From contig JACUTR010000005.1 of assembly GCA_014859735.1 (NCBI GenBank), positions 1 through 38,644 on the forward strand: a DNA stretch of 38,644 nt. The letters run 5' to 3'. Positions 271 to 38,411 of the stretch are shown here, piece by piece. The notes below the pieces were generated by a model, which was not told the origin of the DNA, made no database searches, and saw only the letters and a list, made by a program, of their open reading frames with translations. The stretch is from Candidatus Methanophagales archaeon. Lineage in GTDB: Archaea > Halobacteriota > Syntropharchaeia > Alkanophagales > Methanospirareceae. The stretch's first letter is position 1. The number at the start of each line of letters is the position of its first letter. A program made the position numbers and the translations under genes.

Positions 271-1656
271 ATGATAAAGGTATTACCTGAACTGGATGAG
301 GCATTATCCTCAGAAAAGGGATTTTCACTGCTGATAAAAGGTTTGCCCGGGACAGGGAAGACGATACTTGCGCTCTCTGTAATTGCAGAGTTTGGTGGCT
401 CTGATGCGCTCTATATGTCAACGAGGGTATCTCCTAACTCTCTCTACAAGCAGTTTCCCTGGCTTAATGAGCGCAGCCAGCCATTGAACGTAATAGATGC
501 AACAAAGCTTTATGTCTCAGCAGACACACACTTTGGACTTCAGACATTTCCGGAAGTCTTATATTCAAGACTTCGTGAGATAGAAAAACCAGCAACTATC
601 GTGGTTGACAGCTGGGATGCGATGACCTCGCAAGTTGACGACAGCAAGAAGATTGTATTGCTGCAGGCTGCGATAGCAGATCTCGTAAGAGAAAGCAGGA
701 TAAACCTCCTTCTCGTGACTGAAAGTATGGAAGTAACTCCTCTGGATTATTTGGTGGATGGAATAGTGGTGTTAAGGAAGTACGAAATAGATTATAGAAG
801 GGCGAGAGAGATTGAGATGAAGAAGCTGCGGGGCATTGAGATAGATCAGCATAAATACGCGTTCACGTTAAAGGGTGGTAGATTTCAATCGTGCATGCCT
901 TTCCAGGGGAGGAGATTGGAGAAGCGAAGAAAGGCAGAACTCGTGCCGAATACTGAAACGCACCTGTCTACCGGGGTCTCGGACCTGGATAAGATTATAG
1001 GCGGGGGCTTAAAAAAGGGGAGCTTAAATGTCATAGAACCTGAGGATAATCTTGCTATCCTCGGTTACCAATCCATTATCGCTCACATGATTATAAATAG
1101 CATACAGCAAGGGGTGAATTGTGTATGTATTCCCTGTTGCGGCTGGGATGAGAGGAGATTGAGAAGGGGGATATTGCCTTTTGTAAGCGAAGAGGAGTAT
1201 AATAAGTTCTTCACGGTCTTCGAGATAGGTTCAGAGGAGAGGGAGAATGAGAGAGAGAATGTGAAGATATTGAAAGGTGAGTCGGCGAAGGCGGAAATCT
1301 CAAAATTCCGTGAATTTATTTCTGATTTGAAGCCGCCGGTCATGGTAATTATTGGAATAGATACGCTGGAGTACCCATACCACTTGAAAGAGAAAGGTAA
1401 AATAGGTGAAATGATGGGGATCTTATCCCATCTGATGGCAGATATGAGAGAAGTGGGAAATGTAGCCACATTCGGATTGACGCCCGGGCTTGAATTGGGC
1501 AGGGCACTTATTCACTTAGCCTCAACCTACTTTAAGTTGACCGAGCTTCATAAGAGCGTTCTCCTTTATTGCAATCGCCCTGAGACTAAATTACACTGCT
1601 TGGATAACGTTGTTACCGATGATACACTCGAGATAAAGCTCACTACTATTGTGTAA
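271..1656 (+). CDS. KaiC/GvpD-like RecA-superfamily ATPase (two RecA domains, second degenerate)
   Basis: A 461-residue protein with an N-terminal RecA-type domain. The Walker A motif GLPGTGKT lies at residues 24-31 and a Walker B-like strand, ATIVVDSWD, near residue 110. A second KaiC-type domain begins near residue 230 with TGVSDLDKIIGGGLKKGSLN, but the expected P-loop is replaced by EPEDNLAILGYQ, so only the first half should bind ATP normally. Archaeal KaiC/GvpD-like proteins are thought to act in signalling or gene control; substrate and partner are unknown here. The ATG at 271 follows a purine-rich site (gaagaggg). The small X1 gene starts 23 bases after its stop and is probably cotranscribed. 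No gas-vesicle genes are nearby, so a GvpD role is not supported. Confidence 0.8.
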   Translation: MIKVLPELDEALSSEKGFSLLIKGLPGTGKTILALSVIAEFGGSDALYMSTRVSPNSLYKQFPWLNERSQPLNVIDATKLYVSADTHFGLQTFPEVLYSRLREIEKPATIVVDSWDAMTSQVDDSKKIVLLQAAIADLVRESRINLLLVTESMEVTPLDYLVDGIVVLRKYEIDYRRAREIEMKKLRGIEIDQHKYAFTLKGGRFQSCMPFQGRRLEKRRKAELVPNTETHLSTGVSDLDKIIGGGLKKGSLNVIEPEDNLAILGYQSIIAHMIINSIQQGVNCVCIPCCGWDERRLRRGILPFVSEEEYNKFFTVFEIGSEERENERENVKILKGESAKAEISKFREFISDLKPPVMVIIGIDTLEYPYHLKEKGKIGEMMGILSHLMADMREVGNVATFGLTPGLELGRALIHLASTYFKLTELHKSVLLYCNRPETKLHCLDNVVTDDTLEIKLTTIV

Positions 1657-1679
1657 AGAGAGTAAATATAAATATGGAG

Positions 1680-1850
1680 ATGGAGATAGATGTGCAGGTG
1701 ATGGTGGGGAGCAACATCATCATCACGTTTGGAGGGGTAGACGTGGAGCTGACGAAAGAACAGGCGGAGAAATTAAAGGTACTTCTTGTAGACGCCCTTG
1801 AGAGCTGTGAGCGTGATCTTCTCCCCAAGAGGGTCAATAAACGCAAGTAA
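1680..1850 (+). CDS. small conserved protein X, copy 1 (56 aa), overlaps broken gene Y antisense
   Basis: An open frame of 56 residues starting MEIDVQV; an in-frame ATG at 1674 would add two residues, but 1680 matches copy 3. It aligns over its full length with X3 at 31273-31443 (IITFG-VDVELT, then QAEKLKVLLV, then RVNK at the end). The predicted layout is a beta hairpin followed by one amphipathic helix; there is no membrane segment. It follows the KaiC-like ATPase closely. Its last 78 bases lie opposite the end of the broken Y1 gene. I do not recognise the family. It is too short for most gene callers, but conservation of the reading frame between copies 1 and 3 supports it being a gene. 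Confidence 0.6.
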   Translation: MEIDVQVMVGSNIIITFGGVDVELTKEQAEKLKVLLVDALESCERDLLPKRVNKRK

Positions 1851-2026
1851 AGTCCTTTCATTAAATAGGAAGAAGTCATCGCCACATTTCTCTCTTATTT
1901 CTTCTATGCCCGTACCGTCAAAATAAATCCGCTTCCCACATCCATTTCCTGCTCTTTGTTAACAGAAGTAATAGGCTCGATAATCTTCTTCTCTTTCTCC
2001 TCCTCTATCTCTCCCCCTTTCTTTAT
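1773..2026 (-). pseudogene. broken copy 1 of small protein Y (AbrB-like?), frameshifted and start lost
   Basis: The reverse strand shows clear similarity to Y2 (15612-15863) and Y3 (31099-31350). The N-part reads EKEKKIIEPITSV in one frame. The C-part reads AGNGCGKRIYF, then EEIREKCGDDFFLF, then KKYL in another. Two extra bases near 1955-1962 shift the frame; the total is 254 bases against 252 in Y3. The codon aligned with the Y3 start ATG is ATA at 2026-2024. A stop follows soon after the shift in the first frame. Two independent lesions make this a decayed gene rather than a sequencing slip. It ends tail-to-tail over 78 bases of X1. Confidence 0.7.
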
Positions 2027-2086
2027 TACTGTCCCAAATGCGGGTAGTCTCATGAAGTCTCATCGGACCTTACTGATTTTAACCGA

Positions 2087-2231: not shown

Positions 2232-2495
2232 ATGGAATACGAAATGGAGATGGTTAGAGAAGTGGAGAGGGAGCCTGAGCGGATTGCAGAGCTACCGGAT
2301 GCCGAGAAGGAAGAGATAAGCGAGGAGCTTCTCGAGGTGGTTACGGAGAGAAAGGTCGAGCTCACTCCACGAGAGGTGGGCGAATTTATAGCTTTGATAC
2401 AGGGGCATCATACGAAAGACATTTTCAGGAAGGTGATAAAGACAGCAATGCGTATCAATCCTTCGAAGACAACCGAGATATTACAGAGATACTAA
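2232..2495 (+). CDS. conserved small acidic helical protein (87 aa)
   Basis: An 87-residue soluble, highly charged, mainly helical protein with no signal peptide or membrane span. Residues 24-87, starting KEEISEELLEVVTERKVELT, align with the C-terminal half of the 169-residue protein at 3504-4013 (KEELSEAFLSLIVESEVRLS). The two genes therefore share a domain that is free-standing here and fused there. The start is well set: ATG six bases after aggaggtga. A promoter and a strongly folded leader precede it. It ends convergently with the AAA ATPase gene across a T-rich gap. Function is unknown; small size and position suggest a regulatory or adaptor role. Confidence 0.65.
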   Translation: MEYEMEMVREVEREPERIAELPDAEKEEISEELLEVVTERKVELTPREVGEFIALIQGHHTKDIFRKVIKTAMRINPSKTTEILQRY

Positions 2496-2520
2496 ATTTC
2501 TCTCTCTTTTTTCTTTTTTA
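2496..2520. terminator. T-rich tract between convergent genes
   Basis: A pyrimidine run (tttctctcttttttctttttta) lies between the convergent stops of the 87-aa gene and the AAA ATPase gene. Oligo-T tracts are typical archaeal intrinsic terminators on the strand that carries the T's, here the plus strand. No stem is needed or evident. Confidence 0.5.
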
Positions 2521-3483
2521 TACATAACCAGAGATTTTTTCTTTTATCCTTCCCTCAAGTTTCTGTGAATATTCAAAAATATCAGGGAAGAAATCCTCCA
2601 TTCTTCTCTCAGCAATTCGCAATATTGCAATCCTTTGCCAATAAGGGAGAGAGGGCTTTATGTTTTTAACCGCTTTCAGTAAATCTTCCATGCAAATGTC
2701 CCTCGGTGGTTTCCCCAGTATTGCCTCCTCTAAAGGGAAGGTTGCAGCTTCGTTACAGACCTCTCGTATGTCAGCGCCCGAATAAGTTTCAGTGAGCCTC
2801 GCAATCTCTTTCAGGTCACAGTCCTCTGCAACCGGTCGCCCTTTCAGATGGATTTTGAAAATTTCGACCCTTGCTTCGAAGTCAGGTGGTGGGACGAAGA
2901 AAAGTTTGTCAAATCTGCCAGGGCGCATTAATGCAGGGTCAATGTTCCAAGGTGAGTTCGTAGCCGCGAGAATCATTATATCTCCACGGTCCTCGAACCC
3001 GTCTAATTCTGTAAGAAAGGTATCCACAATTCTTCTTTCATGATGTTCTGCGTCCTTATGCGAGCCAATACCATCAACCTCATCAAAAAAAAGAATGGAA
3101 GGCGCATGATTTCTCGCCTCTTCAAAGACACGCTGTATGTTCCTGTCGGTTTCTCCATACCATTTGCTCAGCAGGTCAGGTATCTTTACATTGGAAAACT
3201 TCGCATCTGCTTCACCCGCAGTTGCTCTCGCGATCAATGTCTTTCCACAACCGGGAGGGCCATAAAGGAGGATGCTGCTCTTCATTCCCCTCTTATAGAG
3301 TTCATAAAGGTCAGGTCGCTTCAGAGGATAAATAATGGAGAGTTTTATTCCCTTTTTTATCTCGTTTAGATTGCCGACGTCCGCAAATGTGGTTCTTTTC
3401 ATCTTTTTAAGAATATCATTGCTATGCATCCATAAATTCTTTCTCGTAGAAAAACCAAAAGTTTTATATTTCACCTGTGACAT
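2518..3483 (-). CDS. CDC48/proteasomal-type AAA ATPase, single AAA domain
   Basis: About 321 residues with one complete AAA module: Walker A GPPGCGKT, Walker [10 protein letters not shown], sensor-1 AATN, and the Arg-finger/second-region segment [19 protein letters not shown] typical of p97/CDC48 and proteasome-activating ATPases. The pore loop region is [10 protein letters not shown] helical lid with [13 protein letters not shown] follows. The N-terminal domain is very short, so substrate choice must come from partners. Such ATPases unfold proteins or remodel complexes in the cytosol. The start is uncertain: GTG at 3510 overlaps the divergent gene, ATG at 3483 lies near a TATA-like run, and ATG at 3429 would follow the TATA at 3461-3470 with a very short leader. 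It diverges from the 169-aa gene. Confidence 0.85.
3461..3470. promoter_or_regulatory. TATA box shared by divergent genes
   Basis: The run gttttatatt reads as TATA toward the 169-aa gene (start at 3504). As aatataaaac on the reverse strand it reads as TATA toward the AAA ATPase, with a best-fitting start at 3429. The spacing gives leaders of about ten bases on either side. Confidence 0.45.
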
Positions 3484-3503
3484 ATAATTCACTGAGGGTA
3501 TAG

Positions 3504-4013
3504 ATGGCACGGAAGGCTGAGGGAGAGAAGAAAGGCGAGGGAACGCTCGTCGCCAATGTCCATGATAAGGGCGATAAAAGAGGCGTCTCCATTTATTTCG
3601 GCAGCAAGGAGATTGAACTGCTTAAAGAGATGGGGGTTGACCTCCGTGAGGTGCGAAAGTTCCTCATTGAGGTACGCGGCAACAAAATCTACTTGACGCC
3701 TCTTTCTACTCTCTACGAAGCAGAACCGACGGACATTGATATTCTCCTCGAGATAACAAGCCGGTTTGATGACCTACGGTCGCTTGACAACGAGACTAAG
3801 GAGGAGTTAAGCGAAGCTTTTCTCTCTCTTATTGTGGAGAGCGAGGTGAGGCTCAGCGAAGAAGAAAAGGCTGCTTTCATGCAACTCATAAAGGGTGTCT
3901 GGGGGAGTTATGTGCTAAAGAAGGTATTAGGTGCCTGCACACGCGCAGATGCAAAAGCAACGTTGCTCGCAATAAATCGACTTGTTATCACAAATTCTGC
4001 ACCTGAAAAGTAG
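3504..4013 (+). CDS. two-domain protein: Y-like (AbrB-like?) N-domain plus 87-aa-protein-like C-domain
   Basis: A 169-residue soluble protein. Residues 15-70 (LVANVHDKGDKRGVSIYFGS, then KFLIEVRGNKIYLTPL) align with small protein Y (LVASVQRAGNERGKRIYFDS). The final strand pair resembles the swapped-hairpin AbrB DNA-binding fold; this is inference from pattern only. Residues 95-165 align with the 87-aa protein at 2232. The ATG at 3504 has a short leader behind a TATA box. It is the first gene of the run leading into metV-metF-hdrA, 38 bases upstream of metV, so it could be an operon-specific regulator or an assembly factor. I do not recognise a named family. Confidence 0.7.
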   Translation: MARKAEGEKKGEGTLVANVHDKGDKRGVSIYFGSKEIELLKEMGVDLREVRKFLIEVRGNKIYLTPLSTLYEAEPTDIDILLEITSRFDDLRSLDNETKEELSEAFLSLIVESEVRLSEEEKAAFMQLIKGVWGSYVLKKVLGACTRADAKATLLAINRLVITNSAPEK

Positions 4014-4747: not shown

Positions 4748-4748
4748 G

Positions 4749-5678: not shown

Positions 5679-5721
5679 AAACGAATTGGTGTATCGTAGC
5701 GTTTAGGTACGGAAGGAGGAA

Positions 5722-7680: not shown

Positions 7681-7687
7681 GGTTTAA

Positions 7688-8749
7688 ATGGTATCAAAAA
7701 AGAGCAAAGGATTTGAAGCACTAAAACAGGAGATAATTGACAGGAACCTCTGCACTTACTGTGGAGCCTGCGCTTCTTTTTGTGAGCATATCGAGCTGGA
7801 ACCCGATCCGACGAGACAAGTACCAGTCTTAAAAGATGAGTGCTCGCTGGATAAAGAAGGTGTGCTGAAGTGTAGCGAGAATGGAACCTGCTATGATGTG
7901 TGCCCGATGACAGAAACCGATGTAGAAGGGTTAGAGATGAAATTCCTGGATTCGGAAGGCATAAAAGAGAGAGATGAGTACTTAGGCATTTATAAGGAGT
8001 TAATTGCAGGTAAAACCTCGATAGATGGGCAAGATGGTGGCATCGTTACTTCTATGCTAACTGCAGGAATGGGAAACGAACTGTTTGATTGCGTTATCGT
8101 GGCAGAGAGAGGAGAAGACTTCAACGCAGGTGCAAAAATAGCAGAGTATATAGATGAAATAGAAAAAGCGAAGGGCACGAAATATGTGCAATGCCCGATG
8201 GTATCGAAGATAGGGGAGGCGGTGAAAGGTGGTAAAAGGAAAATAGCAGTCGTTGGGACGCCATGTGAGATAAGAGCAGCGAGGAAGATACAGTCTGTTT
8301 TGTTGAAAGATGTGCCTCAGATAGAAATCACTACCATTGGACTATTCTGTTTTGAGAACTTTTACCATGATAAACTTGCGAAGAAGACAAAGGAGCTATT
8401 AGGCATTGACCTCGCATCCGCATCTAAAATACAGATAACCAAAGGTAAATACCTGGTCACAGCGAATGGCAAGACGTATAAGACAAAAGTAGCAGAACTG
8501 GATGAGGCGGTGAGAGAGAATTGTCGCTATTGCGATGATTTCGTAGCTCGGCTTGCAGACATCTCCGTTGGCTCTGTGGGTAGCGAGGATGGATATTCAA
8601 CCATAATCGTGAGGTCTGAGCGTGGCGAGAAACTTTTAGATTTGATTGATTTCTCGAGAGGCGATGTTGATAAGGAGGAAATAAGCAAAACAGCGAAGTT
8701 GAAGCACGAAAAGTTTGAAACAGCAGTTGGCGCTGGGATCGGAGGTTAA
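7688..8749 (+). CDS. FrhB/FpoF-like F420-binding iron-sulfur flavoprotein
   Basis: A 353-residue coenzyme F420 hydrogenase/dehydrogenase beta-subunit family protein. An N-terminal ferredoxin part (NLCTYCGACASFC, then GTCYDVCPMTE) is followed by the FrhB core (DGGIVTSML, VVGTPCEIRA, CRYCDDFVARLADISVGSVG). Family members hold FAD and [4Fe-4S] clusters and exchange hydride with F420. The N-terminal clusters and length resemble FpoF/FdhB more than bare FrhB. It lies between two hdrA genes with gaps of seven and three bases, so it is probably the F420 input/output module of the HdrA complex. The start ATG follows a weak aaggtt site overlapping the previous stop. Confidence 0.88.
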   Translation: MVSKKSKGFEALKQEIIDRNLCTYCGACASFCEHIELEPDPTRQVPVLKDECSLDKEGVLKCSENGTCYDVCPMTETDVEGLEMKFLDSEGIKERDEYLGIYKELIAGKTSIDGQDGGIVTSMLTAGMGNELFDCVIVAERGEDFNAGAKIAEYIDEIEKAKGTKYVQCPMVSKIGEAVKGGKRKIAVVGTPCEIRAARKIQSVLLKDVPQIEITTIGLFCFENFYHDKLAKKTKELLGIDLASASKIQITKGKYLVTANGKTYKTKVAELDEAVRENCRYCDDFVARLADISVGSVGSEDGYSTIIVRSERGEKLLDLIDFSRGDVDKEEISKTAKLKHEKFETAVGAGIGG

Positions 8750-8752
8750 AAA

Positions 8753-10483: not shown

Positions 10484-10527
10484 TAAGCCCTTACAGGGCT
10501 TGCGGGGTCGTGGGGCAGAGCCCCACA
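10484..10527 (+). repeat. GC-rich palindromic repeat unit inside the hdr operon
   Basis: Two adjacent hairpins, AGCCCT-TAC-AGGGCT (10486-10500) and GTGGGGC-AGA-GCCCCAC (10510-10526). Both recur at 31541, 36995 (inverted), 38459 and in part at 23883. The element sits just before the Shine-Dalgarno site of the next hdrA-like gene and could form a processing or attenuation hairpin. Confidence 0.75.
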
Positions 10528-10550
10528 GATGAGGAGGTGCGAATGGCAGG

Positions 10551-12335
10551 ATGGAAGAGGAAAGAGAAGGAGTTGCTGTCTTCTTTTGCCACTGTGATGG
10601 TGAAGTAAGCGGAATGGTGAATGTTCCAGCGGTGGCGAAATATGCCGCGACACTACCAAAAGTTGTTATTGCGGAGGAGCACGAGCATCTATGCAGTAAG
10701 GAGGGCATTGCACGATTAAAAGAGGTTCTTGGCACTGGAAAAGTGGATAGGGTTGTTATGGCTGCATGCAGTCCGAGGACGCATGGTGGCATCTTCCTTA
10801 GCGCATTAGAAAGCGCTGGCATCAACGAATATCTTGTAGAATTTGCAAATCTCAGAGAGCAGTGTGCGTGGGTGCATGAAGACCGGGTGGAAGCGACGGA
10901 GAAGGCGAAGGATTTGGTAAGGATGGCTGTGTTCAGGGTTATGGAGCTTGAACCGCTGGAGAAGATAAAGTTGAGTATCATTCCCTCTGCTCTCGTCATA
11001 GGAGGTGGCGTCGCAGGGATGGAAGCGGCACTTAACATCGCATCTAAAGGCTTCAAAGTGGTTATCGTAGAACGTGCTGAGGAGATAGGAGGTAGAGTAA
11101 GGAAACTCAGCACTACGTTCCCTACGATTAGCTGCGGCATACCTTGCAGACACGATTGCCCGGACTGCGAATTCACACCGAAGATAGAGGAGATATATGC
11201 GGCTGGGAACATAGAAGTGCTGACTTCTGCGGAGGTCGTTGAAGTTAAGGGACGCATTGGAGAGTATAAAGTGAAGGTAAGAAGAGAGGGAGGAGATGAC
11301 GGGGAGGAAGAGAGGGATTTGAATGTGGGCATGGCGATAATAGCCACGGGTTCCAGGACTTTCGACCCAAGAAGAATCCCTGATTACGGATACGAGTTTG
11401 AGGATGTCATCACATCAGAAGAAATCGAACTGATGTATTTGCAGTCAAGGAAAGGTGGCAGAGGTGCAAAACTTCTTCGCCCATCAGATGGGAGGGTACC
11501 GAAGCGAGTGGACTTCATTCAGTGTGTGGGTTCTCGTGGTCTGAAGCCGGGGAGCAACCCTTACTGCTCCATAACTTGTTGCCTGTATGCAATGGGACAC
11601 GCAAGAGCGATAAAGGAGATGTATCCCGATACAGAAGTTTATATACATTACACGAATATTCAAGCGCCTTACAGGGGTTTTGAAGAATATTACAAGGAGA
11701 CAGCTTCGCTTGGCATAAAATTCGTGAGGGGTATGGTGGAGAAGGTAGAGAAGCGAGATGGAGAACTATTCATCGTTTATGAGGATGAGGATTCACAAAA
11801 GAAGGAAGATATGGCGACTGAACTCGTTGTGCTCTCCGTAGGGCAGGAACCGAGCGACGCTACGGCGAAACTAGCTGAGATGTTCCATGTGGAGCGAGAC
11901 ATTGATGACTTCTTTATGGAAGTGAACCCGAGGGTTGTTGCAGAAGAGAAGACAGGTGTCTTCATTGCCGGTTGCGCCTTGGGTCCGAGGAACATAAGAT
12001 ACGCAGTTGCTGATGGCAGAGCCGCAGCTGAGAACGCAATCAGGTTCATGGAGCAGGGATTCGTGGAAGTAGAGCCTGTAATTCCAGAGGTGGACGCGGA
12101 TAAATGCATAAGGTGTGGGGTTTGCGAGAGTTTGTGCCACTACGAAGGTATAAAGGTAGGCAAGCAAGAAGCGGCTGAAGTAATTGCCGCACTTTGCAGG
12201 GGTTGTGGACTCTGCGTGGCTTCATGTCCCTCAAAAGCACTTCAGATGAGATATTATAGCGATGACCAGCTGAGAACACTATTTAAAACTGCATTCTCAA
12301 TGCCAGTGGCTGAGGCGGAACCTGAGAGGGGGTGA
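10551..12335 (+). CDS. HdrA paralog, short form lacking the inserted ferredoxin domain (2)
   Basis: A 594-residue tandem paralog of the preceding gene: CHCDGE, CSPRTHGG, REQCAWVH, FAD motif GGGVAGM near 150, cysteine cluster CGIPCRHDCPDC at 195-206, then a C-terminal two-cluster ferredoxin (CIRCGVCESLC about 518, CRGCGLCVASCP about 548). It also lacks the central ferredoxin insertion. Long shared blocks such as GPRNIRYAVADGRAAAENAI show a duplication followed by divergence. The ATG at 10551 is 11 bases after ggaggtg; an ATG at 10543 is out of frame. Its stop overlaps the next gene's Shine-Dalgarno site, so the two are translationally linked. Confidence 0.88.
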   Translation: MEEEREGVAVFFCHCDGEVSGMVNVPAVAKYAATLPKVVIAEEHEHLCSKEGIARLKEVLGTGKVDRVVMAACSPRTHGGIFLSALESAGINEYLVEFANLREQCAWVHEDRVEATEKAKDLVRMAVFRVMELEPLEKIKLSIIPSALVIGGGVAGMEAALNIASKGFKVVIVERAEEIGGRVRKLSTTFPTISCGIPCRHDCPDCEFTPKIEEIYAAGNIEVLTSAEVVEVKGRIGEYKVKVRREGGDDGEEERDLNVGMAIIATGSRTFDPRRIPDYGYEFEDVITSEEIELMYLQSRKGGRGAKLLRPSDGRVPKRVDFIQCVGSRGLKPGSNPYCSITCCLYAMGHARAIKEMYPDTEVYIHYTNIQAPYRGFEEYYKETASLGIKFVRGMVEKVEKRDGELFIVYEDEDSQKKEDMATELVVLSVGQEPSDATAKLAEMFHVERDIDDFFMEVNPRVVAEEKTGVFIAGCALGPRNIRYAVADGRAAAENAIRFMEQGFVEVEPVIPEVDADKCIRCGVCESLCHYEGIKVGKQEAAEVIAALCRGCGLCVASCPSKALQMRYYSDDQLRTLFKTAFSMPVAEAEPERG

Positions 12336-12343
12336 AAAAAGAA

Positions 12344-13075
12344 ATGACGTTTCCAAAGATAATAACTTTTTGTTGCAACTGGTGTGCGTATCCGGGAGCG
12401 GATTTGGCAGGCATATCGCACTTTAAGTACCCCGAAAATGCGAGGATAATCAGGGTGATGTGCTCAGGGCGTGTAGACCCCGGGCTTGTGCTTGAGGCAT
12501 TTATCAGCGGTGCAGACGGTGTCATGGTGATGGGCTGCCACATTGGCGAATGTCATTATGAGCATGGCAATTTCGAAGCGGAGAGGAGGATAAAACTACT
12601 GCAATATCTCTTCAACAAATACGGGCTTGGTGCTGAGCGACTGAGGATAGAATGGATTGCCGCTTCAGAAGGCATGAAATTCGCGGAAGTAACTGCTGAT
12701 TTCGTGGAAACGGTGAGAGAAATCGGGATAATGCAAGAAGAGACAACGGAGATACTCGAAGTTATGAAGGATACGTTCTACGGTGAGCGGCTCAGGCTTG
12801 CCCTTGGAGCGGCGAATCGTGCTTTGAGCAGTGGTGCGGATGGTGAGAAATACGAGGAGGCGTTAAGGAGAATAGCAGAGGAGGAGATGAACAAGTACAG
12901 GGTGCTTCAAACGCTGAGGAAAGAAGGGGAGTTATCTGCAAGAGTAGTTGCGGAAAAGCTCGGGCTAAGTCTGCGCGAAACTTTTAACCACTTTCTCGAC
13001 CTGACACGGGAGGGGGTTATTGAAGAAGGGGAAATGGGTGAAGACCAGTATATCGTATATAGATTCGTAGGGTGA
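12344..13075 (+). CDS. mvhD: MvhD-like [2Fe-2S] subunit with C-terminal winged-helix extension
   Basis: About 243 residues. The N-terminal 135 are an MvhD domain with the cluster ligands FCCNWCAYPGADLAGIS, MCSGRVDP and GCHIGECHY. In Mvh/Hdr complexes MvhD passes electrons between an input module and HdrA. The last 70 residues read as a winged helix (LRKEGELSARVVAEKLGLSL, then REGVIEEG), doubling the usual MvhD length of about 140. The ATG at 12344 is preferred over GTG 12332, which lies inside the gagggggtga site and overlaps the upstream stop. Its stop overlaps the next hdrA start. The winged helix may be for docking rather than DNA binding; this is uncertain. Confidence 0.87.
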   Translation: MTFPKIITFCCNWCAYPGADLAGISHFKYPENARIIRVMCSGRVDPGLVLEAFISGADGVMVMGCHIGECHYEHGNFEAERRIKLLQYLFNKYGLGAERLRIEWIAASEGMKFAEVTADFVETVREIGIMQEETTEILEVMKDTFYGERLRLALGAANRALSSGADGEKYEEALRRIAEEEMNKYRVLQTLRKEGELSARVVAEKLGLSLRETFNHFLDLTREGVIEEGEMGEDQYIVYRFVG

Positions 13076-15036
13076 TGAAGATGAGAATAGGCGTTTATGT
13101 CTGTCATTGTGGTTTGAACATAGAGGCGATGGTTGATGTGTCGGGAGTAGCGAAGTTCGCATCCATACTGCCTGATGTGGTCGTTGCTCGTGATTACAAA
13201 TATATGTGCTCAGACCCGGGGCAGGAGATGATAAAGAAGGACATAACGGAGTTTGGCCTTGATAGAGTGGTAGTTGCTTCTTGCTCGCCTCGTATGCACG
13301 AACCTACTTTTCAGGTCGCCATACAGGAGGCGGGACTGAACCCTTACTGTTTTGAGATGGCAAACATAAGAGAGCACTGCTCCTGGGTTCATACCGATAA
13401 GGAGAGGGCGACTGAGAAGGCGGAAGCGCTCGTAGCTGCTGCGGTTTTTAAAGCTTCGCAGTTAGAGCCGCTGGAGACCATTGAAGTGGATGTTACGCCC
13501 ATTGCACTCGTCATAGGCGCAGGAATTGCAGGTATGCAGGCTGCCTTGGATATTGCCGAAGAGGGGTTCAAGGTCTATTTGGTGGAGAAGGAGCCGTCTA
13601 TTGGAGGGCACATGGCTCAACTTGACAAGACTTTCCCCACGCTTGACTGCTCTGCATGCATCCTCACGCCGAAGATGGTGGATGTTGCCCGCCATCCGAA
13701 TATAGAATTGATAACGTATGCAGAGGTGGAGAGTGTTGAAGGTTACATAGGGAATTTCAAAGTGAGGGTGAGGAAGAAGCCACGATACATAGATGAGGAT
13801 AAGTGCACGGGCTGTGGAATTTGCGCACAGCACTGCCCTGTGAAAGTGCTGAATGAGTTTGACCTCGGGTTGGGCTATCGAAAAGCGACTTATGTACCTT
13901 TCCCGCAGGCGATTCCAATGAAATACACAATAGACCGGGATAATTGTATCCAGTGCAGGACTTGTGAGAATGTATGTGGTATGGAAGCGGTGGATTTTGA
14001 GCAGAAGGAGGAGTTCCTGGAATTCGATGTTGGTGCGATAGTAGTAGCTACGGGCTATGATTTGCTCGACCCGCTTAAGGAGCCGGAATTCGGTTATGAG
14101 CTGGAGAATGTAATCTCAGGGCTTCAATTTGAGCGGCTCTCCAATGCATCTGGTCCGACTGGAGGGAAACTAATAATAAATGGAAAGGTGCCGAAGGATG
14201 TGGTGTTCATAAGCTGTGTTGGCTCGAGGGAGAAAGGTGGGCGAGAATACTGCTCTCGGTTCTGTTGCATGTATAATGCGAAGCAGGCGCACCTTGTCGG
14301 AGAGAAGATTCCAGATGCGAATGTAACCGTTCTTTATTCTGACATGAGGGCTTACGGAGAGGGCTTTGAGGAGTTCTACAATCGTGTTAGGGAAGAAGGG
14401 GTGAGGTATGTGAGGAGAGAGCTTGAGGACCCGATAGAGGTGAAGATGATGGATGGAGAAGAGGATAGAGTCGTGGTCGTTGCAAAGACGGAGAACGGGC
14501 TGGAGGAGTTCAAGTCGGATTTGGTCGTGCTTGCAAATGCCGCGGTTGCAAAAGGCGATGCTGATAAAGTCAGGAGGCTCACGAGTGTCTCGAGGAGCAG
14601 AGATGGGTTCTTCTTAGAGTTGCATCCGAAGTTGAGACCGATTGAAACCACAGTTGCTGGCATCTTCCTCGCTGGATGCGCACAAGCACCGAAGGACATC
14701 CCGGACAGCGTTGCTCAAGGCTCCGCTGCGGCTTCATACGTTTGCAGTCTGCTTGCACAGAAGCGAGCAAAGGGCGAGAGCTGCATCTCGGTGGTGGACG
14801 AGGATTTATGCATAGGCTGTGGCACCTGCGTCTCTGTTTGTCCTTTCGGTGCGATGGAGTTCAGTGAACGTGGTACATACGGGTCAAGCAATTTCAGAAA
14901 AGTTGCGCAGAATATAAGTGCGCTCTGTAAAGGATGCGGAATCTGCGGGTCTGAATGCCCTGGAAGGGCACTAAACGTGAAGCACTTCAAAGACGAGCAA
15001 ATACTGGCACAGGTTGAGGGTATCCTTTCCGTGTAG
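13075..15036 (+). CDS. hdrA: HdrA-type flavin/iron-sulfur electron-bifurcating subunit, long form 2
   Basis: About 653 residues with full HdrA order: CHCG, SCSPRMHEPTF, REHCSWVH; FAD motif GAGIAGM; DCSAC-ILTPKM; inserted ferredoxin CTGCGICAQHCP about 243 and CIQCRTCENVC about 291; C-terminal ferredoxin CIGCGTCVSVCP about 579 and CKGCGICGSECP about 618. It is a close paralog of the hdrA at 5722, with identical stretches around the Rossmann fold and DKTFPTLDCSACILTPKM. Possible starts are GTG 13072, ATG 13075 and ATG 13081; the first two overlap the mvhD stop. It is flanked on both sides by MvhD genes, so each long HdrA may serve a separate subcomplex. Confidence 0.92.
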   Translation: MKMRIGVYVCHCGLNIEAMVDVSGVAKFASILPDVVVARDYKYMCSDPGQEMIKKDITEFGLDRVVVASCSPRMHEPTFQVAIQEAGLNPYCFEMANIREHCSWVHTDKERATEKAEALVAAAVFKASQLEPLETIEVDVTPIALVIGAGIAGMQAALDIAEEGFKVYLVEKEPSIGGHMAQLDKTFPTLDCSACILTPKMVDVARHPNIELITYAEVESVEGYIGNFKVRVRKKPRYIDEDKCTGCGICAQHCPVKVLNEFDLGLGYRKATYVPFPQAIPMKYTIDRDNCIQCRTCENVCGMEAVDFEQKEEFLEFDVGAIVVATGYDLLDPLKEPEFGYELENVISGLQFERLSNASGPTGGKLIINGKVPKDVVFISCVGSREKGGREYCSRFCCMYNAKQAHLVGEKIPDANVTVLYSDMRAYGEGFEEFYNRVREEGVRYVRRELEDPIEVKMMDGEEDRVVVVAKTENGLEEFKSDLVVLANAAVAKGDADKVRRLTSVSRSRDGFFLELHPKLRPIETTVAGIFLAGCAQAPKDIPDSVAQGSAAASYVCSLLAQKRAKGESCISVVDEDLCIGCGTCVSVCPFGAMEFSERGTYGSSNFRKVAQNISALCKGCGICGSECPGRALNVKHFKDEQILAQVEGILSV

Positions 15037-15062
15037 TGTAATAGGAGGTGAAAAAAGAGAAG

Positions 15063-15494
15063 ATGGAAGAAAAGAAGAAAGAAGAAAATGGGTTTGAACC
15101 GAAGATAGTGGGATTTTGCTGCAACTGGTGTTCATACGCTGCGGCAGACCTTGCGGGTATTTCTCGTCTGAAGTATCCGCCGAACATTCGCATAATAAGA
15201 GTGCCATGTACCGGCAAAGTAGACCCATTGTATATACTGAAGGCGTTTGAACTCGGTGCAGATGGCGTATTCCTGGCAGGATGTATGGAAGGCGAGTGCC
15301 ATTACCTCACTGGGAATCTATATGCGAGGGACAGGATAGAACGGCTGAAGAGGGACCTCGAAAAGGTAGGGCTTGGGGGGCGTCTTGAGATGTTCTTCAT
15401 GTCCGCAGCGATGGGCAAGGAATTCGCTGAGGCGACAACGGACTTAACAGAGAAGATAAAGAAGATGGGTCCAAGCCCGTTGAGAGGTGGGTGA
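15063..15494 (+). CDS. mvhD: MvhD-like [2Fe-2S] electron-transfer subunit (compact form)
   Basis: About 143 residues, normal for MvhD. It has FCCNWCSYAAADLAGIS, PCTGKVDP, GCMEGECHY and a C-terminal helix. Relative to the copy at 12344 it has no winged-helix extension. A lysine/glutamate-rich N-terminal tail precedes the domain. ATG 15063 follows aggaggtga; GTG 15048 lies within that site. It is the last gene of the metV-to-mvhD operon, followed by 118 bases before the Y2 gene. Expected role: electron relay to or from HdrA. Confidence 0.87.
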   Translation: MEEKKKEENGFEPKIVGFCCNWCSYAAADLAGISRLKYPPNIRIIRVPCTGKVDPLYILKAFELGADGVFLAGCMEGECHYLTGNLYARDRIERLKRDLEKVGLGGRLEMFFMSAAMGKEFAEATTDLTEKIKKMGPSPLRGG

Positions 15495-15611: not shown

Positions 15612-15863
15612 ATGGTAGATGAAGAGCAAGAGAAAGAGCCAGAGGAGAAGAAGATCATCGAACTCATAGCCTCAGTTCAAAGGTTAGGGAATGAAAGAGG
15701 AAAGCGGCTTTATTTTGACAGTAAGAGCATAGAAGAGATAAAAGAGATATGCGGTAATGACTTTTTCTTATTCACCGAAAGGACTTTACTTGCTTTTGTT
15801 GATCCTTCTGAGGAAAAGATCACGCTCACTTCTCTTAAGGGCGTCTACAAGAAGTACCTTTAA
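15612..15863 (+). CDS. small conserved protein Y, copy 2 (83 aa, AbrB-like?)
   Basis: An intact 83-residue protein with an acidic N-terminal tail (MVDEEQEKEPEEKK), then a beta-rich core RGNERGKRLYFDS-like segment, and a C-terminus KGVYKKYL. It is about 85 percent identical by eye to Y3 at 31099. The core also matches the N-domain of the 169-aa protein at 3504, and its strand-helix-strand pattern recalls AbrB-type DNA-binding domains; that is inference. The ATG at 15612 matches the Y3 start context (gtgataatatgg); an upstream TTG at 15555 is unlikely. Its last 78 bases lie over the degenerate X2 on the other strand. Confidence 0.7.
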   Translation: MVDEEQEKEPEEKKIIELIASVQRLGNERGKRLYFDSKSIEEIKEICGNDFFLFTERTLLAFVDPSEEKITLTSLKGVYKKYL

Positions 15864-15910
15864 TTTCTCGGCCATTCCTTCCTTAGCTCTACCTCATCAA
15901 CCGTGATTAT
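15786..15910 (-). pseudogene. degenerate copy 2 of small protein X
   Basis: Reverse-strand similarity to X1 and X3. MAEKLKVLLVDAL with the tail RRINKSK is open from 15875 to 15786. The upstream part (IITVDEVELRK) is in another frame because of a one-base deletion, with a short in-frame gap, and the N-terminus contains stops. A 29-residue remnant starting at ATG 15875 could still be made, but the beta-hairpin half is lost. The overlap with Y2 is again 78 bases. Confidence 0.65.
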
Positions 15911-27210: not shown

Positions 27211-28155
27211 ATGGGCATAAAAGAACCCTTCGAGGAGGTGATAATGGATTGGCGAACCGTGGTGGTGGTAGCACTTGCGGCGGTTTTATGGCGAACATTC
27301 ATAAGCCTCGACCACGAGATTGCTCTTTGGGAGAGTATCTGCTCAGGTATTGCGCTTATCATACTCGGCTGGTCTCTCTTCGGTTACATCTATTCTCTCT
27401 CCCGGAAAGAGACGAGCTGGTTAATCTCGAATAAGATGGCTCAGGGGATTGCGGTTAGCCTCACCGCCCTAAATGTTTACGTTCTTATTTACTATGGAAT
27501 GAGATGGTACAGAGTACTTCGTACAGAAGTATATCTGCCCTATGATTTTCTCTTGAGGGATGCGAGATATATTCTGTTAGTGATGGCTTATTGTGGAATA
27601 ATCTTTGCGATGAGGTATCTAAAGAAGATGCACGATAATTACCTGTTGGTAACCGAGAAGATGCCGGAGATGCGAAAACCGGCCGTGCCAGAAGCAATAT
27701 TCAAAATAATAACCGATGAACGAACCGCAATAGTGATCATAGCACTCGCATTTTTTTGGCGGTCATTCATAAGCCTTGACCGAGAGATACTTCTCTGGGA
27801 GAGTATGTGCTCAGGTGTTGCTCTTTTCATATTGGGCTGGATCCTCTTCGGTTACATAAGTTCACTCTCAGTGAGAACAATCAGACCAAGCGTTGCAAAG
27901 ATTTATCAGGGTATTTGCATTGCTCTATTCAGCATAAACATGTATGTTGTTGTTTACTATGCGATGAAGTGGTATGAATTAGCCTTTGCGGGTGCAGGAG
28001 ATCTGGTGCCGCTGGATTTCGTCTTCAGGGACATACAATTTTTCATGCTCGTGATATTTTACTGCTCGGTATTAGTCATGTCAAAGTGGCTGGAAAAGGC
28101 ATCTGAGGAGTGTGAATATTTGATTAAAAAAGGAGAAGAAATGTATAAGGAGTAA
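27211..28155 (+). CDS. repeat-built multi-span membrane protein, two modules
   Basis: A 314-residue protein made of two homologous modules of about 150 residues. Each has about four helices and the motif order W-R-[TS]-F-I-S-L-D, LWES-CSG, LGW-LFGYI-SLS, NxYVxxYYxMxWY, [LV]xxDF-FRD, then FYC. The repeated polar signature (FISLDHEIALWESICSG; FISLDREILLWESMCSG) next to helix ends suggests a binding or packing site. It has no signal peptide and no soluble domain. Paralogs lie at 28283 and 37428. The start ATG follows gtaggag. It is located beside the divergent histidine kinase. I do not recognise the family, so transport or sensing are only guesses. Confidence 0.8.
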   Translation: MGIKEPFEEVIMDWRTVVVVALAAVLWRTFISLDHEIALWESICSGIALIILGWSLFGYIYSLSRKETSWLISNKMAQGIAVSLTALNVYVLIYYGMRWYRVLRTEVYLPYDFLLRDARYILLVMAYCGIIFAMRYLKKMHDNYLLVTEKMPEMRKPAVPEAIFKIITDERTAIVIIALAFFWRSFISLDREILLWESMCSGVALFILGWILFGYISSLSVRTIRPSVAKIYQGICIALFSINMYVVVYYAMKWYELAFAGAGDLVPLDFVFRDIQFFMLVIFYCSVLVMSKWLEKASEECEYLIKKGEEMYKE

Positions 28156-28183
28156 TATCTTGACCCGATCGTATTTAAAATTT

Positions 28184-28272
28184 ACCGCAGAGAACGCTGA
28201 ATTAGAGGTTTAGTTTACTAGCGGTTAGCTCGTTAGCTAAACCTCTAAGCCTACAACCGTGAACTCTGCGGT
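28184..28272. repeat. nested inverted repeat between paralogous membrane genes
   Basis: Outer arms ACCGCAGAG (28184-28192) and CTCTGCGGT (28264-28272) enclose inner arms TTAGAGGTTTAG (28202-28213) and CTAAACCTCTAA (28237-28248), the latter a perfect 12-pair match with a 23-base loop. It fills the gap between the two genes and may be a leader hairpin or a small mobile element. Confidence 0.7.
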
Positions 28273-28282
28273 TAATCTGACA

Positions 28283-30613
28283 ATGGCAAGGAGAGATTTT
28301 ATATTCAGGTTAATAACCGACGAAAGGGTATTAGTAGTAATAGTGAGTATAGCGTTCTTATGGCGAGCGTTCGTAAGTTCTGATGGAGAAATAACCTTAT
28401 GGGAAAGTGTGTGTTCTGGTGTAAGTCTTTTTATAATTGGCTGGGTCCTCTTTGGATATCTATACTCCATGAGCGCGAAACCGACGGACTGGCCGGTTTC
28501 GAATAAGATCTATCATGGTATTGCCGTTAGCCTTCTCGTGCTGAACATTTATGTTATGATTTACTATGGAATGAGATGGGTTGGATTACTGCATGTAGAA
28601 GTTTCTGTGCCACGGGATTTCATTTACCGGGATTTGAGATACGTGCTCTTCGTGATCTTTTATTGCGTAGCAATTGGCTCGGCGCGATATCTAAGGGGCG
28701 TGCATGAGAATTACCGACTGTTGATTAAAGAGAGACCGAAGAAACGTGCGAAGAGCATAAAAGAAGCTATATTCAGGGTGGCGACGCATGAACGAACATT
28801 GGTGGTGGTAATAGCGGCGGCGATTTTATGGCGGATGGTCATAAGCGGTGACAACGATATCACCTTCTGGGAAAGCACGCTCTCAGGTATCTCGCTTATC
28901 GTATGGGGGTGGTCCATCTTCGGATACTTCTGCGCGTTGTCCGTAAAAGTGAAACGCAAGCCAGATTTGACAAGAGCAATCCAGGGAACAGCCCTCGGAC
29001 TTTGCGCTATAAACATTTACGCTGTTCTTTATTACGGGCTGAGGTGGTATGGACTGATAGGCAGACTCATGGGAGAAGTGGAGGAGACGTGCGTGCCGCA
29101 GCCGCTGGATATCGTCTTCAGGAATGTGAGATATCTCATGTTAGTGCTTTTTTATTGCACAATAGTGCTAGTAGCGAAGCAGTTAGTAAAGGCATACGAG
29201 GATTATACCGTACCAGCCCGAAAGATAAAGGAGAGGGAAGTTGCACGGTTTAAAGGTAATAAAAAGAATGGGAGGATAAAGATATCAGGCTCCTTTGAAA
29301 TAACAACCTTTCAGAAATGGTGCAGAATAGGGCTCATCTTCAGGTTCAGTGAAAGTATTAAGTGGTACGAATATGAGCCCTCTCTTGGTTCTCAATTCAA
29401 CAAGTACCGGTTATCAATCGCCGATCGCCTGGGAAATTGCTTGTTCTTCGAGGATAGATCATTTATGGATTTTATTTCACTTTTCAAGACAACCTGTACC
29501 GGTCGGCTATGGTTGGGAAGATACACTGCAACCCACAAGGGCAACGTGGCAATATTAGAGTTCATACCGCCGTCGCCTGGAAGATATGAACTTGATTTTG
29601 ATCTGGCTGCGGATGAGGTCTTTTCGGAACCCGGGCATAAGAGAATGACTTCTTTTCAGGAACTGACTCTGTATGTGAGGGAGGGGGTAGAACCCATGGA
29701 GGGCCCGGCATATCCGCATAAGCGAGTTGATTTGATGAAAGTTCGAGATATCATGACACGTCCAGTCATCGCTGAAGATGGAGCGGCTCTGGTCACCAAG
29801 ATAGCGGAGGATATGGCAGAACTGGGCATCGGCAGTGTAGTTATAACCTCGGAAGGGAAACCCGCGGGAATTATTACTGAGCGCGACCTGGCATTAAAAG
29901 TTCTATTAAAGAATAAAAGGGCAAGCGAGGTAAAAGCAAAAGAGATAATGTCTTTCCCTTTGATTACCACCGGGCCTGAAACGTCAGTTGAAGAAGCATG
30001 TGAGCTCGTAGCAGAGAAGGGCGTGAAAAGGCTGCCGGTGGTTGAAAACGATGTACTCATCGGTATTGTAAGTATCAGAAACATATTGACAAAGAAGCCG
30101 AGGTATGTAAAAAGATTTTATCCCGAAGTGCGTGTTTTAGCAAGTAGATGTAAACAGGCAGTCCGTTTGGTAGTCCCCTATTTTTTATTTAGAACAGAGA
30201 AAAGAAGTGAAATAGGGGAGCTGAAAGTTAGAGAGATAATGACGCGTCCAGTCATCGCTGAAGATGAAGAGACGTTGGTCACCACGATAGCGAAAGATAT
30301 GAACGAGTTGGGGATAGGGAGTATAGTTATAACAAGAAAAGGTAAGCCATCAGGAATTATTACTGAGCGCGACCTGGCATTAAAAGTTCTATTGAAGGAT
30401 AGGAAGGCAAGCGAGGTGAACGCAAAAGAGATAATGGCATTCCCTCTGGTAACCATCGAGCCAGAAGCATCAGTAGACGAGGTGTGCAAGCTCGCAGTGA
30501 AGAAGCGCATAAAGAGACTGCCAGTGGTTGAAAATGGGTCGCTCGTGGGCATTGTTAGTATTCGAGACCTGTTGAGATGGAAGCCGGAGTATGTACGGGA
30601 ATTCTATTTCTAA
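28283..30613 (+). CDS. membrane-module protein fused to a beta-rich domain and four CBS motifs
   Basis: About 776 residues. Residues 1-320 are two modules of the same membrane family (WRAFVSSDGEITLWESVCSG; WRMVISGDNDITFWESTLSG). Residues 330-475 form a soluble, strand-rich domain I do not recognise. Two CBS pairs follow (about 485-605 and 650-775), each starting VRDIMTRPVIAED or VREIMTRPVIAED. CBS pairs usually bind adenosine nucleotides and gate transporters or enzymes, so the fusion suggests energy-state control of the membrane part. ATG 28283 is preferred over GTG 28259, which falls within an inverted repeat; no clear Shine-Dalgarno site is seen. It ends tail-to-tail with the gene at 30610. 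Confidence 0.82.
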   Translation: MARRDFIFRLITDERVLVVIVSIAFLWRAFVSSDGEITLWESVCSGVSLFIIGWVLFGYLYSMSAKPTDWPVSNKIYHGIAVSLLVLNIYVMIYYGMRWVGLLHVEVSVPRDFIYRDLRYVLFVIFYCVAIGSARYLRGVHENYRLLIKERPKKRAKSIKEAIFRVATHERTLVVVIAAAILWRMVISGDNDITFWESTLSGISLIVWGWSIFGYFCALSVKVKRKPDLTRAIQGTALGLCAINIYAVLYYGLRWYGLIGRLMGEVEETCVPQPLDIVFRNVRYLMLVLFYCTIVLVAKQLVKAYEDYTVPARKIKEREVARFKGNKKNGRIKISGSFEITTFQKWCRIGLIFRFSESIKWYEYEPSLGSQFNKYRLSIADRLGNCLFFEDRSFMDFISLFKTTCTGRLWLGRYTATHKGNVAILEFIPPSPGRYELDFDLAADEVFSEPGHKRMTSFQELTLYVREGVEPMEGPAYPHKRVDLMKVRDIMTRPVIAEDGAALVTKIAEDMAELGIGSVVITSEGKPAGIITERDLALKVLLKNKRASEVKAKEIMSFPLITTGPETSVEEACELVAEKGVKRLPVVENDVLIGIVSIRNILTKKPRYVKRFYPEVRVLASRCKQAVRLVVPYFLFRTEKRSEIGELKVREIMTRPVIAEDEETLVTTIAKDMNELGIGSIVITRKGKPSGIITERDLALKVLLKDRKASEVNAKEIMAFPLVTIEPEASVDEVCKLAVKKRIKRLPVVENGSLVGIVSIRDLLRWKPEYVREFYF

Positions 30614-30855
30614 ATGTACCCCATGCTGTAAAGCAGCGACAATATATATGCCACCACGGAGCAGGCAAGGAAGAGAAGCGCCAGGAAAAGACCGACGTAA
30701 AACCCTACACGCTCCACCTCGACTCCAGGGCAATGCGCCTTTATTGATTCCACTGACCGTGGGTCATAAGGAGGATTCAAAGTCAGCATGAGTCTCATTG
30801 TCTCCGCTGGACATTTAATAAAGCATTTCAGCGCACTGATGAACTTACTTCCCAT
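30610..30855 (-). CDS. 81-aa small membrane protein (relative of the 23099 gene)
   Basis: 81 residues, the same length and layout as the protein at 23099: MG start, CFIKCP against CFGKNP, a polar proline-rich middle with several cysteines, and one or two C-terminal helices ending LYSMGYI against MTYGLLWI. The resemblance is moderate. An aaggaga site lies 12 bases before ATG 30855. A promoter-like box on the same strand is at 30954-30968. It overlaps the convergent CBS gene by four bases. Function unknown, possibly an antiporter accessory protein. Confidence 0.6.
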   Translation of the reverse strand: MGSKFISALKCFIKCPAETMRLMLTLNPPYDPRSVESIKAHCPGVEVERVGFYVGLFLALLFLACSVVAYILSLLYSMGYI

Positions 30856-31098: not shown

Positions 31099-31350
31099 AT
31101 GGCTGATGAAGAGCGAGAGGAAGAGTCAAAGGAGAAGAAGATTATCGAACTTGTAGCTTCTGTTCAGCGAGCAGGGAATGAAAGGGGAAAGCGAATTTAT
31201 TTCGATAGTAAAAGCATAGAAGAGATAAGGGAAAAATGCGGCGATGACTTCTTCTTATTTACCGAAAGGACTTTACTTGCTTTTGTTGACCCTGCTGAGG
31301 AGAAGATCACTTTCACTTCGCTCAAGGGCATTCACAAGAAGTACCTTTAA
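31099..31350 (+). CDS. small conserved protein Y, copy 3 (83 aa, AbrB-like?)
   Basis: An intact 83-residue protein: acidic tail MADEEREEESKEKK, core LVASVQRAGNERGKRIYFDS, CGDDFFLFTERTLLAFVDP, EEKITFTSLKG, end KKYL. It differs from Y2 at about 13 positions. The core aligns with the N-domain of the 169-aa protein at 3504. The start ATG 31099 follows aggggaaggtga. The last 78 bases are shared, in opposite sense, with the intact X3. This is the only one of the three modules in which both genes are open. A role in gene control is possible if the AbrB-like reading is right. Confidence 0.72.
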   Translation: MADEEREEESKEKKIIELVASVQRAGNERGKRIYFDSKSIEEIREKCGDDFFLFTERTLLAFVDPAEEKITFTSLKGIHKKYL

Positions 31351-31443
31351 TTTCTCAGCCTGCTTCTGCGTTAGCTCCACGTCTACCCTGCCAAACGTGA
31401 TGATTACATTGCCGCCCACCAGTACCTGCACATCTATCTCCAT
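31273..31443 (-). CDS. small conserved protein X, copy 3 (56 aa), overlapping Y3
   Basis: An open 56-residue frame, MEIDVQVLVGG then VIITFGRVDVELT then QAEKLKVLLVNAL then RVNKSK. It matches X1 over its full length with about 14 differences. No stop or shift interrupts it. The start ATG 31443 has a weak purine-rich lead (gaggga) and a (AAGC)6 tract 14 bases upstream. The C-terminal 26 codons are coded opposite the end of Y3. Nothing suggests a membrane span. Family unrecognised; conservation against X1 is the main evidence that it is a gene. Confidence 0.62.
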   Translation of the reverse strand: MEIDVQVLVGGNVIITFGRVDVELTQKQAEKLKVLLVNALERSESDLLLSRVNKSK

Positions 31444-31456
31444 GATACTTTCCCTC

Positions 31457-31480
31457 GCTTGCTTGCTTGCTTGCTTGCTT
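31457..31480. repeat. tetranucleotide tandem repeat (GCTT)6
   Basis: Six perfect GCTT units (AAGC on the X3 strand) sit between the X3 start at 31443 and a TATA-like run (atatactaaa) at about 31491-31500. Changes in unit number would alter promoter-to-start spacing of X3. Confidence 0.85.
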
Positions 31481-37427: not shown

Positions 37428-38411
37428 ATGGGTATAAAAGAATCCTTTGAGAAGGTGATATTGGATGGTCGGACATTAATAGTGATACTCCTTGTAGCGA
37501 TTTTATGGCGAACATTCATAAGTCTTGATGGAGAGATAGCCCTTTGGGAGAGTATGTGCTCAGGTATCGCTCTTATCATATTTGGGTGGGTTCTCTTCGC
37601 TTACCTGTATTCCATGCCCAGGGAAGTGAAAGGCTGGGTAATTTCAAAGTATATCTATCAGGGGATTACCGTTTGCCTGGTCACTATAAACATTTACGTT
37701 CTTATTTACTACGGGATGAGATGGTCTGGGTTACTGCGTGTAGAAGCTTATCCGCCCCTGGATCTCCTGTTCAGAGATATACGATACATCGCATTGGTGG
37801 TGTTTTATTGCGCAGTCATATGGTCGGCGAAGTATGTAAAAAAGGTGCACGAGGAGTATATATCACGGTTTAAAGAGAAGACGCTTATCAAGCTCATATC
37901 ACCCTATTTATACCCGCGGGTTAAAAAGCTGAGCGAAATGAGCGTGCGAGAATTAATAGGCACGGTGATAACCGATGAACGAACATTAATAGTGATCATA
38001 GGTCTCACCTTTTTATGGCGAACCTTCATAAGCTTTGACTTCAATATAGCGCTTTGGGAAAGTATGTGCTCAGGTATTGCTCTGTTCATCATGGGCTGGC
38101 TCTTTTTCGCTTACATATATTCTCTGTCAAAGAAACAGAAAGACTGGTTGGATCTGGGTAAGGTCTATCATGCCATTGCCCTTGGTGTACTCGCTATAAA
38201 CGTGTATGCTCTTGTTTACTACGGAATGAGGTGGTATAGCTTAGCGGTCTCAGGAGAAGAAGCTTTTGTGCCACTGGATTTCCTTTTCAGAGATGCCAGC
38301 TATTTTGCGCTGGTGATATTTTATTGTGCATCAATCGTGCTCTCGAAGTTTCTCAAAAGGGCGTATGAGGAATATACGTTGCTATCCACGGAGGTATCGA
38401 GGAAAAGGTAA
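37428..38411 (+). CDS. repeat-built multi-span membrane protein, two modules (paralog of 27211)
   Basis: A 327-residue protein with two modules of the same family: WRTFISLDGEIALWESMCSG and WRTFISFDFNIALWESMCSG, each followed by GW-LFAYLYS or FFAYIYS, INVYxLxYYGMRW, PLD-LFRD and FYC. A linker of about 30 charged residues (KKLSEMSVRELIGTVITDER) joins them. It is closest to the 27211 protein, including the MGIKE-F start. The start ATG has a taggag site about 14 bases upstream. It is located beyond the NuoN/L/M set. Function unrecognised. Confidence 0.8.
   Translation: MGIKESFEKVILDGRTLIVILLVAILWRTFISLDGEIALWESMCSGIALIIFGWVLFAYLYSMPREVKGWVISKYIYQGITVCLVTINIYVLIYYGMRWSGLLRVEAYPPLDLLFRDIRYIALVVFYCAVIWSAKYVKKVHEEYISRFKEKTLIKLISPYLYPRVKKLSEMSVRELIGTVITDERTLIVIIGLTFLWRTFISFDFNIALWESMCSGIALFIMGWLFFAYIYSLSKKQKDWLDLGKVYHAIALGVLAINVYALVYYGMRWYSLAVSGEEAFVPLDFLFRDASYFALVIFYCASIVLSKFLKRAYEEYTLLSTEVSRKR

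Follow-up and report, generated by a model that had tools for sequence, protein, structure and literature searches.

Two small convergent genes, here termed X and Y, share the last 78 nt of their coding sequences on opposite strands of the window, the 38,644-nt stretch of a Candidatus Methanophagales genome (contig JACUTR010000005.1) that was analyzed. In our preferred reading, to which we assign a probability of about 0.8, X and Y are unrelated real proteins from convergent operons and candidate ATPase accessory subunits, whose overlap is old and mutually constraining and which also occur as single-gene copies.

Geometry, distribution and age of the overlap

As described in the original prediction, the window harbors three X/Y sites and the shared stretch measures 78 nt in each of them. 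At the third site Y3 (31099..31350, plus strand, 83 aa) and X3 (31273..31443, minus strand, 56 aa) are both intact, conserved proteins, the 3' end of X3 overlapping Y3 antisense and in codon register over 31273..31350, i.e. 78 nt including both stop codons. Immediately 5' of the X3 start, read on the minus strand, there is a tandem GCTT repeat (31457-31480). At the first site X1 (1674..1850, plus strand, conserved start at 1680) is intact and lies directly 3' of a KaiC-like ATPase gene, and Y1 (1773..2053, minus strand) is decayed, with a frameshift near 1958 and several lost invariant residues (E28, R29 and others); the two overlap at 1773-1850. At the second site Y2 (15612..15863, plus strand) is an intact Y-only copy flanked by an MvhD/VhuD-like gene and Fpo/Nuo-like genes, and the X2 remnant (15786..15875, minus strand) is open within the overlap (15786-15863) and has lost its N-terminal ~28 codons. 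The predicted equal overlap length and the reciprocal breakage, X open and Y broken at copy 1, Y open and X broken at copy 2, were thus both recovered. Y1 carries several lesions including invariant residues and X2 lacks 28 codons; single miscalls therefore offer no explanation, and assembly error was rejected as the source of the broken copies.

Within the overlap the genes stand codon to codon, each X codon being the exact reverse complement of a Y codon, and the stop codons of X and Y each face a leucine codon of the other gene. Since the probability of an open X frame over the 24 overlap codons, computed from Y codon usage, amounts to ~0.59, an open X frame inside the overlap alone is unsurprising. 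Chance does not account for two further features, namely that the 31 X codons beyond the overlap are conserved and that the same 78 nt recur in two orders.

The distribution of both genes was determined in 58 genomes of the class Syntropharchaeia, all of them draft assemblies and 51 of them from the family of the window genome, whose named relatives are ANME-1/Methanophagales; the order-level relatives are Alkanophagales including Ca. Alkanophaga volatiphilum. With remnants counted, Y was detected in 26/58 and X in 27/58 genomes (E<=0.001), and both were full length in 19. The exact 78-nt overlap was found in at least 15 XY loci of ANME-1 and of both Alkanophagales genomes (G051, G052), and in G040 loss of the X stop has lengthened the overlap to 96 nt. 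Across the family X measures 56-58 aa and Y 83 aa. As part of the preferred reading, the overlap would in all likelihood have arisen before ANME-1 and Alkanophagales split.

Outside the Syntropharchaeia a search for X in 394 genomes of the phylum gave nothing convincing, with one weak match. Neither protein matched a family in Pfam, NCBIfam or PADLOC, and a sequence comparison of X with Y revealed no relation between them. Viral contigs contained no relatives of either gene, and a viral origin was rejected on these grounds. No Rfam family was detected in the window, and no published account of the pair was found in the part of the literature that was covered.

Selection on both frames and single-gene copies

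Summed over every pair of intact loci, dN/dS of the non-overlapping parts amounts to 0.07 for X and 0.06 for Y. Among close relatives, Y outside the overlap differs between window copy 3 and G002, a genome of the same genus, by 7 synonymous and 0 nonsynonymous substitutions, and between G002 and G003 by 9 and 0, respectively. Inside the overlap silent change is reduced, in Y from 0.65 to 0.27 per site where it stands opposite the X core and in X from 0.59 to 0.20 per site. In a tree-based count of third-position events, which covers only fourteen codons and copies that share an overlapping past and uses a tree built from the same cassettes, intact XY pairs exhibit 0.93 events per codon at Y70-83 versus 2.64 outside (p=7.6e-5), and Y-only copies 1.71 versus 1.84 (p=0.82). 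RNA structure was rejected as the cause of the lowered silent change, as no structure signal was observed, with folding z-scores between -1.8 and +0.7 for either strand of 11 pairs.

These data confirm at the sequence level that X and Y are both real proteins under coding selection, from which we infer their translation, and the substitution patterns demonstrate that each frame limits silent change in the other as long as the DNA is shared. X and Y are accordingly opposite-strand coding genes with common 3' sequence and purifying selection on both frames, i.e. a convergent overlapping pair. The original prediction had offered two options, two real proteins locked together or one frame carried passively, had proposed to compare substitutions in and outside the 78 nt and had named consistent interruption of one frame as a refuting pattern. 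The comparison unveiled purifying selection on both frames outside and reduced silent change inside the overlap, and interruption goes either way. Real and mutually constraining proteins are hence borne out, by dN/dS values of 0.06 and 0.07 and by the third-position drop that recovers in Y-only copies. The constraint is mutual, but "locked together" is too strong, several lineages having separated X and Y; passive carriage applies to the last ~10 X codons (pN/pS 1.37) but not to the rest of X.

X-only copies were identified at five loci (G000c1, G010, G015, G045c2 and G049c2, G000 being the window genome) and Y-only copies in G000c2, G010, G014, G015, G032, G045c1, G046 and G048a; the Y of G035 appears frameshifted. 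The breaks in the single-gene copies are confined to the partner, so that exactly one protein survives, and the X frame remains open through the overlap in 8/9 Y-only copies. Three genomes (G014, G032 and G046) possess Y but no intact X and two (G056 and G057) possess X but no Y, all of them incomplete drafts. That the copies can dispense with one partner at a particular site, as predicted, was thus substantiated by X-only and Y-only loci alike.

The Y tree places G049, G020 and the first two window copies in one group, and window copy 3 beside the sister species G002 and G003. It is thus plausible, with weak branch support inside the group, that copies 1 and 2 are complementary survivors of a single duplication. 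The Y-only copy from G045 clusters with other lineages, namely G022 and G050, which suggests that it was acquired by transfer and that transfer was involved as well as duplication; a strictly tandem duplication behind all single-gene copies was rejected on account of this grouping. Copying or transfer of the cassette would have let one site keep X only and another Y only, and would thereby have ended the constraint.

Origin of the overlap and alternative readings

Where X stands apart from Y, as in G010 (C-terminus ...ARCERDSLEDE), the last ~10 X codons, for which pN/pS is 1.37, are missing, and so they are in the X relatives of G056/G057, which comprise 44-46 aa. By this comparison the final codons of X show no conservation and are carried along by Y, which indicates that the overlap is mostly tail on core, the tail of each gene running over the core of the other. 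The final residues of Y would lie over the X helix and the spare tail of X over the Y strand region. Furthermore, both genes have homologs outside the overlap: Y residues 17-81 are homologous to the N-terminal domain of a 169-aa protein (hhalign E 4e-8), and X has its homolog in a domain joined to a helical domain in G056/G057 (E 3e-10), where no Y was found. A gene overprinted de novo is younger than its partner and lacks homologs outside the overlap, and neither X nor Y is of this kind. These homologs show that neither gene originated on top of the other; rather, the ends of two pre-existing genes became joined. The codon-register overlap of 78 nt would have formed where the last genes of two facing operons met; X would subsequently have been extended into Y as far as the stop facing Leu59; that the extension followed the joining of the ends is our inference.

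With such an origin at hand, three alternative readings can be weighed. If only Y were a protein and X an antisense frame held open passively by Y, the open X frame in 8/9 Y-only copies would be readily accounted for, P(open) being ~0.59 by chance, as would the final ~10 codons, which evolve as if unconstrained. Such a passive frame would, however, hardly maintain 31 codons outside the overlap at dN/dS 0.07, stand alone at five loci and persist without Y in G056/G057, nor would silent change in Y opposite the X core be suppressed solely in loci with an intact X, and we regard this reading as extremely improbable. The original prediction had likened X and Y to a toxin-antitoxin-like or regulator/antiregulator pair. 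In such a reading the overlapping ends would keep the two genes together, and the small size of the proteins, their close packing and their strong co-occurrence (19 genomes with both full length) do agree with it. X and Y are convergent, however, and do not form the co-directional bicistronic operon of a type II toxin-antitoxin system; they reside in opposite operons behind different ATPases and match no toxin, antitoxin or defense family, and viral contigs hold no relatives of them. Orphans of both kinds exist among the incomplete drafts (Y in G014, G032 and G046; X in G056 and G057), and neither protein therefore appears to behave as a partner-dependent toxin. With both orphan kinds, the missing family matches and the opposed operons, the toxin-antitoxin part of the prediction was not supported; X and Y could in principle relate as regulator and antiregulator, and overall a pair of either type is very unlikely.

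The overlap could moreover serve as a switch, the convergent transcripts pairing over 78 nt and setting the ratio of KaiC-X to AAA-Y by antisense pairing or transcriptional collision. Conservation of the geometry and of the exact overlap length over two orders, although separation is possible, would fit such a role. Most XY loci, however, keep KaiC-X but lack an AAA gene beside Y, the overlap has been abandoned repeatedly, there is no RNA structure signal, and inheritance together with dual coding explains the constant length. We consider a switch unlikely and retain the reading of two unrelated, mutually constraining proteins from convergent operons.

Operon neighborhood and putative function

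In most ANME-1 loci and in both Alkanophagales genomes X is located directly downstream of a KaiC/GvpD-like ATPase gene (PF06745, PF07088; window 271..1656, plus strand), its upstream partner in most genomes. In both Alkanophagales genomes the opposing operon consists of an AAA ATPase gene followed by Y with gaps of 8-11 nt; the homolog in the window encodes a Cdc48/PAN-like single-AAA ATPase (2518..3510, minus strand). Taken together, the Alkanophagales and ANME-1 gene orders argue for KaiC-like, X, overlap, Y, AAA as the ancestral order, and by this comparison window copy 1 is the ancestral site with Y decayed. Beside copy 1 lie the AAA gene, the gene of the 169-aa protein (3504..4013, plus strand; a Y-like domain followed by a small helical domain, by domain homology) and MetV/MetF; an 87-aa protein (2232..2495, plus strand) corresponds by domain homology to the helical domain. 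The KaiC-like genes of G000, G010, G045 and G049 form one clade (100/100), and in all four genomes the AAA gene and MetV/MetF adjoin the KaiC-like gene. Only 8/58 genomes yielded the 169-aa protein and few have the AAA gene next to Y or X, most XY loci having no AAA gene beside Y; the AAA-Y tie is therefore not universal in ANME-1. Window copies 2 and 3 adjoin neither ATPase.

Several further genes surround the X/Y sites. A membrane-protein family with repeated segments, one member of which is fused to a CBS-like regulatory sequence, occupies 27211-30613 and 37428-38411 of the window and accompanies many X/Y loci (cluster c0, 59 members); the one member compared with Pfam gave no match. An 81-aa predicted membrane protein (30610-30855), whose gene overlaps the end of a neighboring gene by 4 nt, likewise recurs beside X/Y loci (cluster c4, 13 members). 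The region 4052-15494 comprises MetV, MetF and then several HdrA-like and MvhD/VhuD-like genes in one cluster, and in G010, G045 and G049 MetF is likewise clustered with at least one HdrA-like gene. According to PMC9012536, no ANME-1 genome studied there had MetF clustered with HdrA; here the two are clustered.

The molecular role of X and Y rests on this neighborhood and on domain fusions. A helical domain of ~70 aa is common to the 169-aa protein, to proteins of 87-122 aa, to the X-like fusion protein of G056/G057, which also follows a KaiC-like gene, and to the N-terminus of methylene-tetrahydromethanopterin reductase (Mer) (hhalign E 1e-7 to 7e-16), so that Mer and the X-like and Y-like domains have an attached domain in common. 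For the match between the domain of the X-like fusion and the N-terminal extension of Mer, E ranges from 1e-7 to 5e-14. Mer with this domain was found in G051-G053, the G051 protein scoring above the curated Mer cut-off. The corresponding genes, with an N-terminal helical extension of ~95 aa, are situated at L139:2194-3480, L140:392-1675 and L141:5730-7007 (two Alkanophagales genomes and G053). Mer has been replaced by MetF in ANME-1 and Syntrophoarchaeum, and Ca. Alkanophaga has both (PMC9012536, PMC10322722). The reductase gene beside the module is MetF in ANME-1 and Syntrophoarchaeum-like genomes and Mer in Alkanophagales, and the X/Y locus adjoins MetF where Mer is missing.

X is predicted to consist of three strands and a helix (pLDDT 88); a fold search with this model returned no match at E<=0.001, and by sequence X matched no solved structure. 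The poor model of Y (pLDDT 44) contains a helix followed by three strands that resembles a swapped hairpin of the AbrB/SpoVT type, and by sequence Y had no match in Pfam or the PDB. Taken as a proposal of its own, a role of X and Y as small accessory or adaptor subunits of two ATPases comes close to an even chance without reaching it. Each small protein would be the distal gene product of its operon, X behind the KaiC/GvpD-like ATPase and Y behind the AAA ATPase. A tie of the X/Y module to the C1 reductase, methylene-tetrahydromethanopterin reductase, is suggested only tentatively by the fusions; X and Y would then act with the two ATPases on, or with, this reductase step. It is equally speculative, if possible, that an undescribed two-ATPase module (KaiC-like with X, AAA with Y, and helical-domain proteins) services the reductase, the helical domain being a docking tag and the overlap tying the operons.

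Convergent overlaps are common enough in prokaryotes and more so in archaea; phase 123:321 accounts for 33% of those >=5 nt, and long overlaps are not rare (PMC2174442). X and Y, opposed and sharing coding ends in phase 123:321, resemble these 3'-3' overlaps but differ from them in that their overlap was traced over two orders, with both partners shown to be under selection, and in that the single-gene copies provide a within-family control for the release of constraint. As in laoB of E. coli, a gene that arose by overprinting, and in htgA/yaaW, a further embedded antisense case cited in PMC7457138, the DNA codes for protein on both strands. laoB is a young antisense gene, fully embedded and confined to one clade (PMC5810103), whereas the X/Y pair is old, overlaps only partly and has homologs of each gene outside the overlap. 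The ATPase upstream of X matches PF06745 and PF07088 as in archaeal KaiC-like systems, but it scores below the NCBIfam cut-offs for circadian KaiC, and no match to a described partner family was obtained for X, Y or the helical domain. Convergent overlaps as such are known; what is new is the natural experiment together with its surrounding module.

Long antisense overlaps between real genes have been disputed because selection is hard to show in shared bases. With its intact pairs, Y-only and X-only copies, this one family makes the effect of frame on frame directly visible and allows overlap loss via copying and reciprocal loss to be traced. Furthermore, the surroundings of X/Y point to an unstudied ATPase module beside the single step where ANME-1 differs from other methanotrophs, namely in the use of MetF for Mer.
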